From Caryophanales bacterium (GTDB lineage Bacteria; Bacillota; Bacilli; Bacillales; Bacillaceae_J): a stretch of 64,000 nt of DNA. The stretch covers positions 1-64,000 of the forward strand of contig DULJ01000059.1 of assembly GCA_012840465.1 (NCBI GenBank). Reading direction: 5' to 3'. The translations under genes were made by a program, and so were the position numbers. Below, piece after piece: positions 40,674-62,622 of the stretch (positions within the stretch are counted from its first letter, which is position 1; each line of letters starts with the position of its first letter). The notes under the pieces are model-generated. The model worked only from the letters and a program-made list of their open reading frames with translations. It did not search any database and was not told the origin of the DNA.

Positions 40674-40750
40674 TATAAACTTATCTTTTATTAGTTAGGA
40701 TTCAAGGCGCATTTGATTAAAATATAATAATGGACCATGGAGGGATTATC

Positions 40751-41134
40751 TTGAGTATTCCAAAGGATTTACGCTATTCAAAAGAGCATGAATGGGCAAA
40801 ATTAGAAGGAGATAAAGTCCGTGTAGGGATTACGGATTTTGCACAATCAGAATTAGGAGATATCGTGTTTGTTGAGCTTCCTGAGGTTGGTTCAGAAGTA
40901 AATACCGGTGAACCATTTGGAAGTGTTGAATCAGTAAAAACAGTTTCTGAGCTTTATGCACCAATCAGCGGGAAAGTTGTTGAAATCAATAGTGACCTTG
41001 AAGATAGTCCTGAATTAGTAAATGAATCATCGTATGAAAAAGCATGGATGATTGTGATGGAGCCATCTAACGCTTCAGAATTAGATCAATTAATGACTGC
41101 AGAGCAATACGAAGAAATGATCAAGAAAGATTAA
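40751..41134 (+). CDS. gcvH: Glycine cleavage system H protein
   Basis: This 127-residue lipoyl carrier protein shuttles the aminomethyl group of glycine between the P and T proteins. In Bacillus it also passes octanoyl/lipoyl groups to other enzymes (via LipM, LipL and LipA). The lipoylated Lys63 is in [10 protein letters not shown]. The TTG start at 40751 lies six bases behind GGAGGG. The P and T protein genes are not here; gcvH is normally separate from them in Bacillus. lipA is found at 59110 in the same window. Confidence 0.95.
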
Positions 41135-41896: not shown

Positions 41897-42646
41897 ATGA
41901 AGCCTATACGTATAAAAACATGGTTCAATAATAAGCTTTCAAAATCAGATGGGGAAATTCAAAAACTGGTTTTAAAAGCACAAGGCGGAGATGAGCAGAT
42001 ACGTTACGATCTTCTTGAACAATACAAGCCATTCGTGAAAAAAGTCGTATCTAAAGCGTGCAAACGATATATTTCCGAATCCATGGACGAATATAGTATC
42101 GGTTTACTTGCTCTGAATGAGGCGATTGACCAGTTTAATAAAGAGCAAGGCGGTAAATTTCTATCCTTTGCAAGTATCGTAATTAATAGAAGGATAATTG
42201 ATCATATTCGTAAAGAAAGCAGACATAATCATATCCTTTTTTCAGATGAAGAGGATGAGGAAGGCAATATTCAAGAAAATTATATCGAACGAAAAATCTC
42301 TATAGAAAAATACGTAATGGAAGAAGAACGTATACAGAGGGTAGAGGAAATAAAAGCTTATCAAAAGCTCCTGTATAGTTATGGCATCACCTTTGAAGTG
42401 CTCAAAAGTGAATGTCCGAAGCATATTGATGCGCGGGAAAATGCCAAAACCGTTGCTAAAACAATTGCGGATGATGTGGACCTCCGGAATGCATTGGTAG
42501 AAAAAAAACGGTTGCCAATTAAAGAGCTAGAAGGACGGGTCTCGTGCAGTCGAAAAACAATTGAACGGAATCGAAAGTATATTATTGCTATCGCTTTAAT
42601 TTATATTGGAGGATTTAATGCACTAAAATCATATATCGCACCTTAG
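41897..42646 (+). CDS. sigI: RNA polymerase sigma factor SigI
   Basis: This 249-residue sigma factor of the SigI group has a sigma region 2 (about residues 30-100, with LLEQYKPFVKKVV, MDEYSIGLLALNEAI and FLSFASIVINRRIIDHIR) and the divergent C-terminal SigI domain (about 150-245) in place of a usual region 4. In B. subtilis SigI serves heat and cell-wall stress responses; in Clostridium relatives it controls polysaccharide degradation. The ATG follows GAGGTGG. The anti-sigma factor gene begins 20 bases downstream. Its position between yusF and a yusD-like gene differs from B. subtilis. Confidence 0.93.
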   Translation: MKPIRIKTWFNNKLSKSDGEIQKLVLKAQGGDEQIRYDLLEQYKPFVKKVVSKACKRYISESMDEYSIGLLALNEAIDQFNKEQGGKFLSFASIVINRRIIDHIRKESRHNHILFSDEEDEEGNIQENYIERKISIEKYVMEEERIQRVEEIKAYQKLLYSYGITFEVLKSECPKHIDARENAKTVAKTIADDVDLRNALVEKKRLPIKELEGRVSCSRKTIERNRKYIIAIALIYIGGFNALKSYIAP

Positions 42647-42666
42647 TAGGGGAGGGGCATACGGGA

Positions 42667-43905
42667 ATGAATCAAGGAATTGTAATGGAGATAAAAAGTA
42701 AAAAAGCGATTGTTTTAACAAAAGAAGGTGCTTTCGAAACGGTCATTCTAAAGAAAGGGCAACATGTTGAAATAGGCTCGGAAATTGACATCCCTGTGTC
42801 TAAAAGTTATTTCAACTCCAATACAAAGTGGATTTCCACGATCGTAGCAGCTGCCGCCGTTCTTGTTTTACTCTTCACTCAATATCCATTTTTACAGAAT
42901 CGTAATTTAGCAGTAGCGGCCTATGTGGGAGTAGACATCAACCCAAGCATCGAGGTTGGGGTTAATGAAAAGTTGAATGTTGTTGAAGTCATTCCAATTA
43001 ATGATGATGGAAAAATAATAGTCGATCAAATCACCGACGACTACCGCAATAAACCCCTATCTGAATTCATTGATGACACAATTGAACTGGCAAAAGCAGA
43101 TGGATATTTAACGAAAAATAAAGAGGTCCTACTAACAACTACAACAATCAATAAAGACACCCAAGTAAAAATCGAAGAGAAAGTGAATGTAATAAAAAAA
43201 GAAATCGAACAAAGAGGAGTGGTCGTCACTTCATTAAAAGGTGACGAAAATACAAGAAAAGAAGCGAAAGACTTAGGGGTTTCGACAGGCAAGTACATGA
43301 TTTACAAGGAAGCTAAAGAGAACCTAACAATTGAAGAAACGAAGGAACTTTCAGTCACACAAATCTATGAAAAATTAGATAAGGGCAAAAAGCAAAAAGA
43401 CAATGAAAAGAAGAATAATCAAATAGAGAAAAATAATAAAGAAGAGAAAAATAATAATAAACAAGAAAAAATTGATGAAGAAATAAAAAAAGAACAACAT
43501 GCTGACAATAAACAACAGAAATTTGAAGATAAAAAGAACAATAAAAAAACAGACAATGCTAATGTCAAAGCAGATCAAAATAAAAACAACGAAAGTGATT
43601 CCAGTAATGAGCCACCCGGTAAAAACAAAGTAAAGGAAAATGGCGGTAATAATGGGAAAGTGAATAAAAATAATGACAAAGATAAAGATGAAGACGAAGA
43701 CAAAGACAAAGACAGCTCTTTCAGTAATTGGAAATCAAATAATAAAATAAAGGAATCCAACGATGACAAGTCATCAAAAAACAAAAAGGATGACTTTGAA
43801 AAACATGATAAACAAGGCGACAAAAAGTCAAAATCAAAAGAAAAAGAAAAAGATAATCATGACAATCAAAAGGGTAAGAATAATGGCAACAAAAGGGGAG
43901 ATTAG
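42667..43905 (+). CDS. rsgI: Anti-sigma-I factor RsgI
   Basis: This 412-residue membrane anti-sigma factor has a cytoplasmic RsgI N-terminal domain that binds SigI (about 1-52), one membrane helix (about 55-74), an extracytoplasmic domain (about 85-235) and a long tail. The extracytoplasmic domain includes VDINPSIEVGVN. The Asn92-Pro93 bond corresponds to the position reported to undergo self-cleavage in other RsgI proteins. From about residue 237 to the end the chain is low complexity (Lys, Asn, Asp, Glu, Gln), possibly wall-spanning. The ATG follows AGGGGAGGGG. Confidence 0.9.
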   Translation: MNQGIVMEIKSKKAIVLTKEGAFETVILKKGQHVEIGSEIDIPVSKSYFNSNTKWISTIVAAAAVLVLLFTQYPFLQNRNLAVAAYVGVDINPSIEVGVNEKLNVVEVIPINDDGKIIVDQITDDYRNKPLSEFIDDTIELAKADGYLTKNKEVLLTTTTINKDTQVKIEEKVNVIKKEIEQRGVVVTSLKGDENTRKEAKDLGVSTGKYMIYKEAKENLTIEETKELSVTQIYEKLDKGKKQKDNEKKNNQIEKNNKEEKNNNKQEKIDEEIKKEQHADNKQQKFEDKKNNKKTDNANVKADQNKNNESDSSNEPPGKNKVKENGGNNGKVNKNNDKDKDEDEDKDKDSSFSNWKSNNKIKESNDDKSSKNKKDDFEKHDKQGDKKSKSKEKEKDNHDNQKGKNNGNKRGD

Positions 43906-44427: not shown

Positions 44428-44510
44428 AAAAGTTTGGAAAAGTATTTGACAGAGATTTAAAACGGTGTTAGGATTATGTTAATCAATTATTATAAATTTT
44501 ATAAGTTTTC

Positions 44511-44662
44511 TTATCCAGAGAGGTGGAGGGACTGGCCCTATGAAACCCGGCAACCGATTTTTTTATAAAACACGGTGCCAATTCCATCAGAGCGTATTGC
44601 TCTGAAAGATAAGGTGAGAGTTTAATTATGGACCCCTCTTCTTATCACGAAGAGGGGTTTTC
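44511..44662 (+). ncRNA. SAM-I (S-box) riboswitch upstream of metY
   Basis: The leader contains TTATCCAGAGAGGTGGAGGG, ATGAAACCCGGCAACC and GGTGCCAATTCC, the invariant SAM-I segments, in order. The terminator stem ACCCCTCTTC/GAAGAGGGGT (44632-44641 with 44649-44658) with a T-run follows. S-adenosylmethionine binding should end transcription before the sulfhydrylase gene. Confidence 0.95.
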
Positions 44663-46015: not shown

Positions 46016-46121
46016 TAAAAAGATGATTACTCTATGGCAACAGTTCACATTGACATAAAGCGGTTATCGATGCTAAACTTTCAAACATGCTAATATTTTA
46101 ATATAATAAATCTTTTGAACT

Positions 46122-46251
46122 CTTATCAAGAGAGGTGGAGGGATGTGCCCGATGAAACCCGGCAACCGTCAATGGACATGGTGCCAATTCACATAGATGA
46201 GAGAAAGGAATCTACTAAGCCTTTCTGCCCGTCTGCAGAAGGGCTTTTTAT
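46122..46251 (+). ncRNA. SAM-I (S-box) riboswitch upstream of metNPQ
   Basis: CTTATCAAGAGAGGTGGAGG, GATGAAACCCGGCAACC and GGTGCCAATTC are present in the right order and spacing. A 12-bp terminator stem (46217-46228 with 46235-46246) with a T-run follows. It controls the methionine ABC transporter. Together with the leader at 44511 it gives two S-box switches within 1.7 kb. Confidence 0.95.
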
Positions 46252-48951: not shown

Positions 48952-48970
48952 TAAATAAACAGGTATTAAT

Positions 48971-49004
48971 AGGCATGAGGATGCTGCTAACGCTCCTCAT
49001 GTCT
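48971..49004 (+). terminator. Stem-loop after metQ
   Basis: An 11-bp stem with one wobble (48971-48981 with 48994-49004) follows metQ. Only a short T-stretch comes after it, so termination may be incomplete. Confidence 0.6.
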
Positions 49005-49233
49005 ATTTGCGTTTGATTACGCATGTTTTGTCGAATACTACAAAAACTAGAAAGAATAGTGGAAATATACTTTCTAAACATTTTTATATAAAAAGTATTG
49101 TTAACAAAATAACTCATGGTTGATAAGTATTTTCTTTTGGTATAGAATTAGAATGAGAATAGATTGAGAATGAAAGCTCCTTTTACAAAAATCGTTGTAA
49201 ATAAAGGGACTAGTATAATATGGAGGTATGAAA

Positions 49234-50016
49234 ATGTCATCTACTTTATCAATTAAAGATCTATATGTTGAGATTGAGGGGAAAGAAATCTTAAAAGGTG
49301 TGAACCTTGAAGTGAAGGGCGGAGAGATCCATGCGATCATGGGTCCAAACGGAACAGGTAAATCAACCCTTGCCTCATCCATCATGGGACATCCCAAATA
49401 TACAGTAACTAAAGGTAGTATAACATTAGATGGACAAAATGTGCTAGAGATGGCAGTGGATGAGCGGGCTCGTGCAGGCTTGTTTTTAGCAATGCAATAC
49501 CCAAGTGAGATTACTGGTGTTACAAATTCCGACTTTTTAAGATCTGCTATAAATGCACGCCGTGGTGAAGGAAATGAAATTTCATTAATGAAATTTATCC
49601 GTTTAATGGATCAAAAAATGCAATTCTTAGACATGGATTTAAATATGGCGCAGCGTTATTTAAATGAAGGTTTCTCTGGTGGAGAGAAAAAGCGAAATGA
49701 AATTTTACAATTGATGATGCTAGAGCCTAAAATTGCAATTTTGGACGAAATTGACTCTGGTTTAGATATTGATGCGTTAAAGGTTGTTTCAAAAGGAATT
49801 AACGAAATGCGCGGAGAAAACTTTGGCTGTCTAATGATTACCCACTATCAGCGCTTATTAAACTATATTACGCCTGATGTAGTTCATGTCATGATGCAAG
49901 GTCGTGTTGTTAAAACTGGTGGTGCAGAACTTGCTGAGCGTTTGGAAGCAGAAGGATACGATTGGATCAAAAAGGAATTAGGAATCGAAGACGAAACAGT
50001 CGAACAAGAAGCGTAA
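49234..50016 (+). CDS. sufC: Fe-S cluster assembly ATPase SufC
   Basis: This 260-residue ABC-type ATPase works with SufB and SufD in Fe-S cluster assembly. It has Walker A GPNGTGKST (about 34-42), the signature FSGGEKKRNEILQL, and Walker B AILDEIDSGLD. The start at 49234 lies seven bases after GGAGG; an ATG at 49228 is too close to it. It is the first gene of sufC-sufD-sufS-sufU-sufB, with 21 bases to sufD. No upstream repressor site was recognised. Confidence 0.95.
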   Translation: MSSTLSIKDLYVEIEGKEILKGVNLEVKGGEIHAIMGPNGTGKSTLASSIMGHPKYTVTKGSITLDGQNVLEMAVDERARAGLFLAMQYPSEITGVTNSDFLRSAINARRGEGNEISLMKFIRLMDQKMQFLDMDLNMAQRYLNEGFSGGEKKRNEILQLMMLEPKIAILDEIDSGLDIDALKVVSKGINEMRGENFGCLMITHYQRLLNYITPDVVHVMMQGRVVKTGGAELAERLEAEGYDWIKKELGIEDETVEQEA

Positions 50017-50037
50017 TAGTAGTGAGGAGGAATTTTG

Positions 50038-53022
<2,985 letters not shown>

Positions 53023-53066
53023 GAATCAGCTTTTGTCTTACACCCAATTTAGGAGGGGATATTAAG

Positions 53067-54464
53067 ATGGCAAAGAAAATGCCGGAAATCGGCGATTATA
53101 AATATGGTTTTAAAGATAAGGACGTTTCTATTTTTAGATCAAAGCGCGGATTAACAAAAGAAATCGTAACTGAAATTTCTAAAATGAAACAAGAACCCCA
53201 GTGGATGTTAGATTTCCGTTTAAAATCTCTTGATTTATTCTACAAAATGCCTATGCCACAATGGGGCGGGGATTTAAGCGAATTAAACTTTGATGAAATT
53301 ACGTATTATGTTAAGCCTTCAGAGAAGTCCGAGAAATCCTGGGATGAGGTTCCTGAAGAAATTAAGAGTACATTTGATAAACTAGGTATTCCTGAAGCTG
53401 AGCAAAAATATTTAGCTGGGGTATCTGCCCAATATGAATCAGAAGTTGTTTATCATAATATGAAGGAAGACCTTGAAAAACTAGGCATAGTTTTTAAAGA
53501 TACAGATTCTGCATTAAGAGAGAATGAGGATATTTTTAAAAAGTATTTTGGGACAGTTGTTCCGCCTGCCGATAATAAATTTGCAGCCCTTAATTCAGCT
53601 GTATGGTCTGGCGGTTCCTTCATTTATGTACCAAAAGGCGTGAAAGTAGATACACCGCTGCAAGCGTACTTCCGTATTAACTCTGAGAATATGGGACAAT
53701 TCGAACGTACACTTATTATTGTTGATGATGATGCATCTGTTCATTATGTAGAGGGCTGTACTGCTCCTGTTTATACAACACACTCCCTTCATAGTGCGGT
53801 TGTAGAAATTATCGTCGGCAAAAATGCATACTGTCGCTATTCAACCATTCAAAACTGGGCAAATAATGTATTCAACCTTGTTACAAAGCGTACAACGGTT
53901 GATGCGTACGGTACAATGGAATGGATTGATGGCAACATCGGTTCTAAGCTGACAATGAAATATCCAGCTTGTATTTTAAAAGGTGAGGGCGCACGTGGTC
54001 TAACGCTTTCAATTGCAATTGCCGGTAAAGGGCAGCATCAAGATGCAGGTGCAAAGATGATTCACTTGGCACCAAACACATCATCAACCATTGTTTCTAA
54101 ATCAATTTCTAAACAAGGCGGAAACGTCACATACCGTGGCATCGTACGTTTTGGTAAGCAAGCTGATGGCTCCCGTTCAAATGTGGAATGTGACACATTG
54201 ATTATGGATAATAAATCAAAATCAGATACAGTTCCATATAACGAGGTTCATACTGAAAATATCTCGCTTGAACACGAAGCAAAAGTTTCGAAAGTATCAG
54301 AAGAACAACTCTTCTACTTAATGAGCAGAGGTATTTCAGAACAAGAAGCTACGGAAATGATCGTAATGGGCTTTATCGAACCATTTACCCGTGAACTTCC
54401 AATGGAATATGCGGTTGAAATGAATCGTTTAATTAAGTTTGAAATGGAAGGCTCTATCGGCTAA
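53067..54464 (+). CDS. sufB: Fe-S cluster assembly scaffold SufB
   Basis: This 465-residue SufB is the main scaffold of the SufBC2D complex. Characteristic runs are [46 protein letters not shown] and [43 protein letters not shown] lies before the ATG. It is the last gene of the suf operon, 44 bases after sufU, with a strong terminator behind it. Confidence 0.95.
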
Positions 54465-60048: not shown

Positions 60049-60324
60049 ATGTTAATCAACGGGGTACAATATGAGCTCGTAGAGGATTACCGAGATGGAT
60101 TTAATGAAGACGCGATCAAAGAACGTTACAGTGATATTTTAAATAAATATGATTATATTGTTGGTGATTGGGGCTATAATCAATTGCGTTTAAAAGGATT
60201 TTTTGATGATTCCAATCAAAAGGCCACCCCTGATACGAAAATTAGTACATTATCCGAGTATCTTTATGAATATTGCAATTTTGGCTGTGCATATTTTGTT
60301 ATAAAAAAAGTGAAGAAGTCATAA
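60049..60324 (+). CDS. yutD: YutD family protein (DUF1027)
   Basis: This 91-residue acidic protein of the YutD family has the typical text NGVQYELVEDYRDGFNEDAIKERYSDIL and KYDYIVGDWGYNQLRLKGFFDD, then CNFGCAYFVIKK. The function is unknown. GTGAGAGG precedes the ATG, 33 bases after lipA, so the two are likely co-transcribed. Confidence 0.88.
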   Translation: MLINGVQYELVEDYRDGFNEDAIKERYSDILNKYDYIVGDWGYNQLRLKGFFDDSNQKATPDTKISTLSEYLYEYCNFGCAYFVIKKVKKS

Positions 60325-61141: not shown

Positions 61142-61405
61142 TTTGATTCTTAGCTTTCTGTGGTATATTTTACAACAACCATCATCTCTTGTCGAAATTT
61201 GTGCTAAGATAAAAGTGAAGAAATCACGCTTATTGTTAAAACTAACGAAGAGGTTGATTCTCTTTTCAATATAGGGGATTATATAGAGGATATCATTTTT
61301 ACTGTTAGACAAAAGATGAAGTAAATCTTGATTTTTAAATCACTATAAAAGTCAAACATAAAAAATATAATAAATCAATTAATTAATATTAAGAGGTGTA
61401 TGACG

Positions 61406-61849
61406 GTGTATTTTGTAGATCGTAAATTTCTTGAAAAATTATTACAGCACATTGAAAAAAGTATTTCTATTTTAAAGGAAAATTCAAATTGGGATGGTCC
61501 GCTTGAAAAGCTTGCCCTTGAGCGAGTGGTGCACATCTTAATTGAGTCCATTTTAGACGTCGGTAATACATTAATTGATGGATTTATTATGAGGGACCCA
61601 GGAAGTTATGAGGATATCATTGATATTTTGTTAGATGAAAAAGTAGTGAAGGCTGAGGATGAAGATCCATTGAAAGCAATTGTTGCTTTTCGTAAAGTTC
61701 TAATTCAAAATTATTTAGAAATTGATCATGATCAAATTTTGCGAGGTTTAAAAGAAAATATTGAAAAAATCGAACAATTTCCTAATCAGGTCCGCGACTA
61801 CCTTGAAAATGAATTGGGGCCAATTAATGCCTTTAACGTTATTCAATAG
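61406..61849 (+). CDS. yutE: YutE, DUF86 (HepT-like HEPN) protein
   Basis: This all-helical DUF86 protein of about 147 residues resembles HepT toxins but stands without a nucleotidyltransferase (MntA) partner. The HepT active-site motif R-x4-H-x-Y is altered here to RKVLIQNY, with Gln for His, so RNase activity is doubtful. I chose the GTG at 61406 because the product then begins MYFVDR, as I recall for B. subtilis YutE, nine bases behind AGAGG; an ATG at 61400 is the alternative. The function is unknown. Confidence 0.82.
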   Translation: MYFVDRKFLEKLLQHIEKSISILKENSNWDGPLEKLALERVVHILIESILDVGNTLIDGFIMRDPGSYEDIIDILLDEKVVKAEDEDPLKAIVAFRKVLIQNYLEIDHDQILRGLKENIEKIEQFPNQVRDYLENELGPINAFNVIQ

Positions 61850-61995
61850 AAGTCTAACACCCAAAATGGTGGAATAGATACAAACTAGTACTTGATACAA
61901 TAAAAGTGTTAACAAAGTATTCAATATTATATAAATATAGAAGTATAAAAATGTCGAAATGTAAGTTATAATGGTGTCAAGGGTGGTGATGTATA

Positions 61996-62622
61996 ATGGC
62001 TAGTAATACGTCTTCAACAAGAGATGAAATATTAACGATGTTAAAATTGAACAAACGTATGACAGTCACTGAAATGGCTAATCAATTACAAATTACGGAG
62101 ATGGCGGTTCGGAGACATTTAAATACGTTGGAAAAGGACCGCTATGTTGAAACTATTCTTGTTCGACAAGCAATGGGACGTCCTTTAAATATTTATCAAC
62201 TTTCAGAAGCTGGGGAAGAACTTTTCCCACGAAACTATAAAAATATTATTCTAGAATTCATTGCTGATATTGAAGAATTAAACGGACAAGAATTGGTAGA
62301 CAAACTTTTTGAAAGACGTAAGGATCGGATGAAAGCGGCCCTTATGAAGCGGATAGATGGTAAGTCATTGGAAGAAAGACTTCAAACTCTTGTTCAAATT
62401 CAAAATGACAACGGCTATATGGCCGATATCCAACAAAATGAAGATGGAAGTTTTGAAATGTCTGAGCATAATTGTCCAATTTCATTAGTTGCTAATAAAT
62501 ATCAAACTGCATGTCATCGTGAGCTGGAATTATTTAAAGAAGTTCTTGGCACTGACAAAATTGTCAGACATGCATGCTTAAGTGATGGCGACGGATCTTG
62601 TCAATATCATATTAAGAAATAA
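61996..62622 (+). CDS. HTH regulator with C-terminal Cys cluster, SufR-like
   Basis: This 208-residue regulator has a DeoR/ArsR-type winged helix (about residues 7-75: MTVTEMANQLQITEMAVRRHLNTLEKDRYV) and a helical middle. The C-terminus has four cysteines spaced C-x12-C-x20-C-x7-C (about residues 158-201). Such regulators include SufR, an Fe-S sensor; the first spacing, x12, is the same as I recall for SufR, but the rest differs. The suf operon ends 7.5 kb upstream. GGGTGGTG precedes the ATG. Fe-S binding is inference. Confidence 0.82.
   Translation: MASNTSSTRDEILTMLKLNKRMTVTEMANQLQITEMAVRRHLNTLEKDRYVETILVRQAMGRPLNIYQLSEAGEELFPRNYKNIILEFIADIEELNGQELVDKLFERRKDRMKAALMKRIDGKSLEERLQTLVQIQNDNGYMADIQQNEDGSFEMSEHNCPISLVANKYQTACHRELELFKEVLGTDKIVRHACLSDGDGSCQYHIKK

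Follow-up and report, generated by a model that had tools for sequence, protein, structure and literature searches.

The window analysed here, a 64 000-nucleotide stretch of DNA, carries a gene whose product is probably a SufR-type Fe–S sensor of Bacilli, which would bind as a dimer to the inverted repeat TTTTTAAAC-N6-GTTTAAAAA and has as predicted targets the gene that encodes it, the sufCDSUB operon and sodA. A SufR-like Fe–S sensor near suf had been proposed in an earlier sequence-only reading of this DNA, and the comparisons reported below support that proposal at the level of sequence; the predicted operator and the predicted link to sodA are new, the latter having gone unforeseen in that reading. 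In the relevant passages of a 2021 review (PMC8593673), the control of suf in most Gram-positive bacteria is given as unknown and SufR is described as dedicated to suf; a SufR in this group of bacteria is not anticipated there. An excerpt of PMC11631912 reports no apparent sufR in S. mutans. Among the matches listed in a search of titles and abstract openings in open-access PMC, none concerned SufR in Bacilli or control of sodA by SufR.

The regulator, its surroundings and its cysteines

The genes and RNA elements of the window that are referred to in this section, and the codons of the four cysteines, are as follows.

61996–62622, + strand: SufR-type regulator gene (ORF, full-length match to TIGR02702, relatives in many Bacilli)
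62014–62160, + strand: winged helix-turn-helix, about residues 7–55 (Pfam HTH_5, HTH_24 and HTH_34)
62473–62475, + strand: codon of Cys160, SufR Cys 1 position (71/71; equals C203 of Rv1460 by spacing)
62512–62514, + strand: codon of Cys173, SufR Cys 2 position (71/71; equals C216 of Rv1460 by spacing)
62575–62577, + strand: codon of Cys194, which replaces SufR Cys 3 (71/71 in Bacilli)
62599–62601, + strand: codon of Cys202, SufR Cys 4 position (71/71; equals C244 of Rv1460 within one residue)
49228–54464, + strand: sufCDSUB, predicted target operon (NCBIfam matches, ORFs)
40730–41134, strand not given: gcvH (recognized by eye)
44508–44615, strand not given: SAM riboswitch (Rfam), before an OAH/OAS sulfhydrylase-like gene recognized by eye
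46120–46203, strand not given: SAM riboswitch (Rfam), before metNIQ-like genes recognized by eye

The regulator ORF starts with ATG, encodes 208 amino acids and lies exactly where the sequence-only reading had placed it. A winged helix at its N-terminus, as had been claimed, is recognized by Pfam models (PF01022 HTH_5, E = 1.3e-8), and the suspected resemblance to SufR extends over the full length of the protein, with residues 7–206 aligning to positions 1–208 of the 208-position TIGR02702 profile (SufR_cyano; 139.6 bits, E = 1.1e-40). Because this score falls below the curated equivalog cut-off of 178.8 bits and the third cysteine is moved, the regulator does not, by these measures, belong to the curated SufR equivalog in the strict sense. 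The protein of Schinkia azotoformans LMG 9581 is 95% identical, and the window genome is close to Schinkia. Elsewhere in this genome, on the contig that carries sodA and ∼23 kb from that gene, a second, distant member of the family (G000:C51:213149-213775) scores 33.5 bits with TIGR02702 and keeps three of the four cysteines.

The regulator gene sits between yutE (HepT-like) and yutF (HAD hydrolase, TIGR01457) and is neither within the suf operon nor divergent from it: its start is 12.8 kb downstream of that of sufC, with about a dozen ORFs between. The neighbourhood of sufCDSUB, lipA and gcvH described in the sequence-only reading is present, sufCDSUB and lipA being identified by NCBIfam models and gcvH by eye, although 'next to' is a loose term for a distance of 12.8 kb from sufC. 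Both here and in many relatives, yutD and yutE (60049–60324 and 61400–61849 in the window; a putative antitoxin and a HepT-like protein, respectively, by Pfam) are located just upstream of the regulator. Elsewhere in the window, a sigma factor and membrane protein pair at 41897–43905 resembles SigI–RsgI by eye, and a search of 42000–64000 against Rfam at the gathering score returned nothing beyond the two SAM riboswitches.

C160, C173, C194 and C202 are the only cysteines of the regulator, and the C-x12-C-x20-C-x7-C pattern given for them previously is exact. The 99 loci found by tblastn (E of 1e-20 or better) yielded 71 distinct Bacilli proteins, including that of the window, and the comparison of orthologues that had been suggested as a check shows all four cysteines to be invariant in 71/71: 56/56 of a first type, to which the window protein belongs, and 15/15 of a second type without linkage to yutE, in which one protein (L053) was placed without reading its neighbourhood. 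An extra cysteine at position 175, present in 46 of the 56 proteins of the first type and 14 of the 15 others, is lacking in the window protein.

The spacing does depart from the SufR form, as the sequence-only reading had remarked. The formula C-X12-C-X13-C-X14-C, as stated for SufR in the passages of PMC8593673 that concern it, would place cysteines at 160, 173, 187 and 202 when counted from C160; position 187 is Asp in the regulator and C194 stands in as the third cysteine, such that Cys 1, 2 and 4 are in register and the full formula is not reproduced. Three cysteines, C203, C216 and C244, are given as required in Mycobacterium tuberculosis SufR (Rv1460), the first gene of the suf operon in that organism, in the corresponding part of PMC6034842. 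By published positions, this trio reads C-x12-C-x27-C, compared with C-x12-C-x28-C (span 42) for C160, C173 and C202, so that the pattern C-x12-C-x27/28-C is common to both; nothing in Rv1460 corresponds to C194 at that spacing, a dispensable C242 being present instead. Because three of the four cysteines occupy SufR ligand positions and the third is displaced, the odd spacing is best described, at the level of sequence, as the frame of SufR with one cysteine shifted, and C-x12-C-x20-C-x7-C was rejected as a new cluster motif for the same reason. We infer that C160, C173 and C202 are Fe–S ligands, and C194 is probably one as well.

The cyanobacterial SufR (Synechocystis sll0088), which was compared through the TIGR02702 profile and the published formula, thus shares with the regulator a winged helix followed by a C-terminal cysteine domain, a full-length profile match and the register of Cys 1, 2 and 4; the predicted operator has the published AAC-N6-GTT core in its consensus, and suf control and autoregulation are predicted for the regulator (see below). 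The cyanobacterial protein differs in the third cysteine (residue 194 here rather than 187), in its half-sites (CAAC rather than TTTTTAAAC) and in its gene position (divergent from sufB, compared with 12.8 kb from sufC); furthermore, sodA is an extra predicted target here, and the regulator scores below the TIGR02702 cut-off.

Distribution in Bacilli and plasmid-borne relatives

The regulator is carried by all seven genomes of the family as defined by the search tool, the window genome included. In an order-level draw, 98 of 299 genomes gave a match (E of 1e-5 or better), 67 of these being strong (E of 4e-46 or better) and the remainder distant relatives, and in a class-level draw 159 of 398 genomes did so. 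Bacillus subtilis 168 gave a weak hit in a model search. The regulator lies beside yutE in 25 of 39 neighbourhoods, with yutF on the far side in 21 of those. In the other 14 the gene is not beside yutE, and nine of them have an Mn-SOD gene near by, as recognized by eye (L136, L140, L147–L149, L152–L154 and L156), two of these neighbours being confirmed by a match to SodA. These nine often also have close by a gene for a small protein, which we take to be DUF1450/YuzB, a ferredoxin or an FMN reductase; at L146 and L151 a ferredoxin or DUF1450-like gene is near. Several of the genes not linked to yutE have a similar upstream palindrome, TTTTATAC-N6-GTATAAAA.

Homologues are also found on plasmids outside the Bacilli. 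Twelve of 37 matching plasmid records were opened, of which ten carry gene annotation and two do not. The proteobacterial proteins are ∼27–32% identical to the regulator among the matches listed, and several plasmid homologues are annotated as 'metalloregulator ArsR/SmtB family'; TIGR02702 scores for three of them are 114.0, 112.3 and 61.3 bits. C160, C173 and C202 are kept in 12/12 plasmid homologues of other phyla (two of them cyanobacterial), and His occupies the position of C194 in 11/12. An SOD gene is the direct divergent neighbour in five of the ten annotated regions (Ancylobacter, two Salipiger, Sulfitobacter and Azospirillum; L267, L270, L271, L272 and L274), with fdxA and a flavin reductase gene also present in two of these alphaproteobacterial cases. 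A dyad, [TA][CA][CA]AAG-N6-CTT[TG]G, was recognized by eye in six of seven plasmid intergenic regions (the five SOD-divergent ones and Klebsiella, Comamonas being without it), most instances of which were missing from the script's palindrome list.

A predicted operator before the regulator gene, sufC and sodA

The palindrome TTTTTAAAC-N6-GTTTAAAAA recurs upstream of the regulator gene, where it lies beside the predicted −35 element, upstream of sufC, about 150 bases before the gene, and upstream of sodA. A symmetric 24-base matrix was trained on 56 first-type regulator promoters only. Since its seed consensus was written after the regulator and sufC promoters had been viewed, sufC does not constitute a blind test. 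The predicted control elements in the window are as follows.

49071–49094, no strand: predicted sufC operator TTTCTAAACATTTTTATATAAAAA, right half degenerate (23.3 bits)
61928–61951, no strand: predicted operator at the regulator promoter, TATATAAATATAGAAGTATAAAAA, with a degenerate left half (15.6 bits, in-sample)
49120–49148, + strand: predicted sufC promoter TTGATA-17-TAGAAT, assigned by eye (similar layout in relatives)
49154–49171, + strand: TGAGAAT-N4-TGAGAAT, a direct repeat that spans the predicted sufC start (common to most of the Bacilli promoters read, L061–L120)

When the matrix was retrained without this bacterial family, 49071–49094 remained the best site in the window (23.5 bits) and 61928–61951 the second (14.9 bits), followed by a third at 12.1 bits; the region upstream of sufC that had been singled out for binding studies (48960–49233) thus contains the best operator match in the window. 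Fifty shuffles of the window gave no site of 20 bits and a mean of 0.08 sites of 15 bits or more. In both sites one half is degenerate, the half-sites being TTTCTAAAC-N6-ATATAAAAA at sufC and TATATAAAT-N6-GTATAAAAA at the regulator gene. The cyanobacterial SufR operator is given as CAAC-N6-GTTG in the part of PMC8593673 that describes it; the core AAC-N6-GTT of our consensus and its N6 spacing are identical to the published core, with the outer C/G replaced by A/T. A perfect palindrome before sufC (TTTACAA-N6-TTGTAAA, 49182–49201) was rejected as an operator, as it is not kept in relatives of the same genus.

The matrix was applied to 30 genomes with the regulator, chosen from high-scoring rows of the order- and class-level draws, and to 30 without it, taken from the unmatched rows listed. 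The sufC set includes one genome of the second type (G597); for sodA, three loci (L221, L228 and L234, of the second-type genomes G195 and G044) were set aside and G345 had no sodA match. Sites of at least 14 bits precede sufC in 19/30 genomes with the regulator (9/16 families) and 0/30 without (0/23 families), and precede sodA in 20/27 (11/14 families) and 0/30 (0/23 families), respectively; conversely, 11 of 30 regulator-bearing genomes have no such site before sufC and seven of 27 have none before sodA. The sodA site had first been noticed by a pattern scan in four genomes (G001 and G004–G006) and was then tested systematically; without these discovery genomes the count is 16/23. Mann–Whitney p values of 1.1e-4 for sufC (first run, 28 of the 30 controls) and 4.6e-9 for sodA (Fisher p = 7e-10) ignore relatedness; counts by family give a fairer picture. 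Judged against shuffles of each genome's own sequence at p = 0.05, sufC sites occur in 19/30 genomes with the gene and 2/28 without (13.1 and 9.0 bits), and sodA sites in 3/30 controls, the highest scoring 11.2 bits. In two families, members without the gene lack sites that are present in members with it, at sodA in one (f8) and at both sodA and sufC in the other (f13).

Further controls concerned the form of the site. When the centre of the matrix was made flat and the threshold set at 13 bits, a spacer of 6 alone gave the contrast, with sites in 19 and 17 genomes with the gene and in 0 and 0 without; spacers of 2–5 and 7–10 gave sites in at most five genomes of any set. The matrix reversed and not complemented found zero sites at 14 bits. 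All 13 sites of at least 16 bits in the 315 kb that surround 25 regulator genes are at the regulator promoter, an in-sample result. An unseeded count of 5-base dyads placed AAACA-N4-TGTTT, which has the same core, at the top for sodA in genomes with the gene (6/27, compared with 0.03 in shuffles), and this dyad is absent from the eight listed for the sodA set without the gene; for the regulator and sufC promoters the core was listed behind AT-rich dyads, with 3/42 and 3/28 (0.0 in shuffles). A genome-wide pattern scan allowing one mismatch is noisy, with 108 forward sites and 66 in the reversed control over 25 genomes, and six and two, respectively, in the window genome, all among the matches listed.

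The sodA gene of the window genome is on another contig (G000:C51:189600) and has a 15.3-bit site 67 bases upstream (p = 0.02 against 60 shuffles). Of the sites found by the pattern scan in this genome, one is that of sufC and another, on contig C75, precedes an MFS transporter gene, another predicted target; this site lies 45–63 bases upstream of the MFS gene in four Schinkia genomes, the window genome included (20.0–23.1 bits), and a HAD hydrolase gene follows next at all four loci (L187, L190, L193 and L196). A 16.5-bit site 203 bases before an ABC-transport gene (C60) and a 19.3-bit site 87 bases before a small gene (C114) could mark further targets; these two were left out of the target count, as were a site that overlaps a gene end (C72) and one within a gene (C122).

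All promoters were assigned by eye. In the predicted sufC promoter, TTGATA starts at 49120 and TAGAAT at 49143, and the operator centre (49082–49083) lies before the predicted −35 element and precedes the predicted start by ∼70 bases. Of the 20 sufC promoters whose site scores at least 10 bits, 17 have the operator centre 67–71 bases ahead of the TGAGAAT repeat; the distance is 60, 63 and 128 bases in the other three, the last being a weak site of 10.6 bits. The repeat itself was rejected as the regulator's site because genomes without the regulator have it too; it probably serves another regulator, possibly a Fur-like one. At sodA, the site follows the predicted −10 box (TAATGT) in Schinkia and Calidifontibacillus and is at or before the −35 element in several other families, and in front of the regulator gene it adjoins the predicted −35 element or overlaps with it. 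This geometry suggests repression at Schinkia sodA and at the regulator's own gene, and a sufC site at about −70 may be compatible with either activation or upstream repression. At two loci (L212 and L216) the sodA operator seems, by eye, to lie within a longer inverted repeat that could form a hairpin in the leader RNA.

Proposed mechanism and alternative explanations

The membership of the SufR family, the conservation of the cysteines, the common operator sequence and its occurrence together with the regulator are shown by sequence. On the mechanism that we infer from these comparisons, for the cluster, the DNA binding, the signal and the sign of control alike, the regulator would occupy its operator as long as the supply of clusters is intact; superoxide, oxidants or iron shortage would strip the cluster, and its loss would lead to a joint adjustment of superoxide dismutase and Fe–S assembly. 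The most economical version is a SufR-type repressor that would leave sodA and its own promoter upon cluster loss; at sufC, cluster loss could lift repression, or the regulator could act as an activator. The regulator would in this work like SoxR and IscR of Proteobacteria, as an Fe–S sensor tied to superoxide defence or to Fe–S assembly; those two belong to the MerR and Rrf2 families, respectively, and are unrelated to the SufR-type regulator.

The same regulator, with the same targets, might instead hold zinc in its four cysteines, which also fit this metal, or might sense thiol oxidation or an aromatic or quinone ligand, with no Fe–S cluster involved. The 'metalloregulator ArsR/SmtB family' label of several plasmid relatives is in keeping with this, as is the predicted structure, in so far as a low-confidence model allows. 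An AlphaFold model based on an alignment of five sequences (pLDDT 73, pTM 0.55) gave no PDB match below E = 1e-3 with Foldseek; its best rows were the aromatic sensor domains of MopR (E = 3.7e-3, TM about 0.4), and the MopR/DmpR-type fold gave a Z of about 7.5 over about 130 residues. Sensor domains of MopR hold zinc, and the low-confidence fold appears no less like sensor domains with zinc than like any other fold. Matches of this strength are weak, however, since the tool itself warns that Z values up to 8 are common, and the realigned C-terminal part matched BcsD, TRAPP, H-NOX and phenol-sensor domains with Z of about 7 to 9; with such mixed rows and no E value below 1e-3, the assignment of a function from fold matches was rejected. 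A sequence search of the PDB returned weak matches only, nearly all to winged helices (best E = 0.0065). The predicted targets, Fe–S assembly and superoxide dismutase, speak against a zinc or ligand sensor, as does the 160/173/202 frame, which, with its span of 42, is the frame of SufR; SufR is reported to hold a [4Fe–4S] cluster in the passage of PMC8593673 that deals with it. We consider a cluster-free sensor unlikely.

We give still less credence to the idea that some other transcription factor, gained and lost together with this gene, uses the operator, the regulator controlling its neighbours only. A correlation of presence and absence is indeed no proof of binding, and the place beside yutE is conserved (25 of 39 neighbourhoods). 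Nevertheless, a site at the regulator's own promoter is the usual mark of autoregulation, the gene-less members of the two families mentioned above lack the sites of their gene-bearing relatives (sodA in f8, both genes in f13), and the core equals that of the published SufR operator, as far as it is given in PMC8593673. The sign of control at sufC is a closer matter. With an operator upstream of the predicted −35 element and a centre so regularly placed before the start-site repeat (67–71 bases in 17 of 20 promoters), the regulator might activate sufC from about −70 and repress sodA and itself, a dual logic like that of IscR and unlike that of known SufR. This is a serious possibility that falls somewhat short of our preference: it rests on promoters assigned by eye, and the SufR proteins described in the relevant portions of PMC6034842, PMC7058544 and PMC8593673 are repressors.

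Returning to the SufR-type sensor that we favour, its predicted control of sodA exceeds the picture of a SufR dedicated to suf. In a wider and more tentative reading, which we do not quite endorse, one SufR-type Fe–S switch in many Bacilli would repress sodA at its start region and act on suf from a site near −70, perhaps as an activator; since the pairing with SOD is found in Proteobacteria too, control of SOD would, if this reading is true, be an old trait of the family, and the suf-only SufR a specialized branch. A single Fe–S protein would then govern the removal of superoxide as well as the rebuilding of the clusters that superoxide destroys. Now that a gene can be named and an operator and targets are predicted, the question of suf control in Gram-positive bacteria becomes testable, and many Bacillus-type bacteria may tune Fe–S repair and superoxide defence together.
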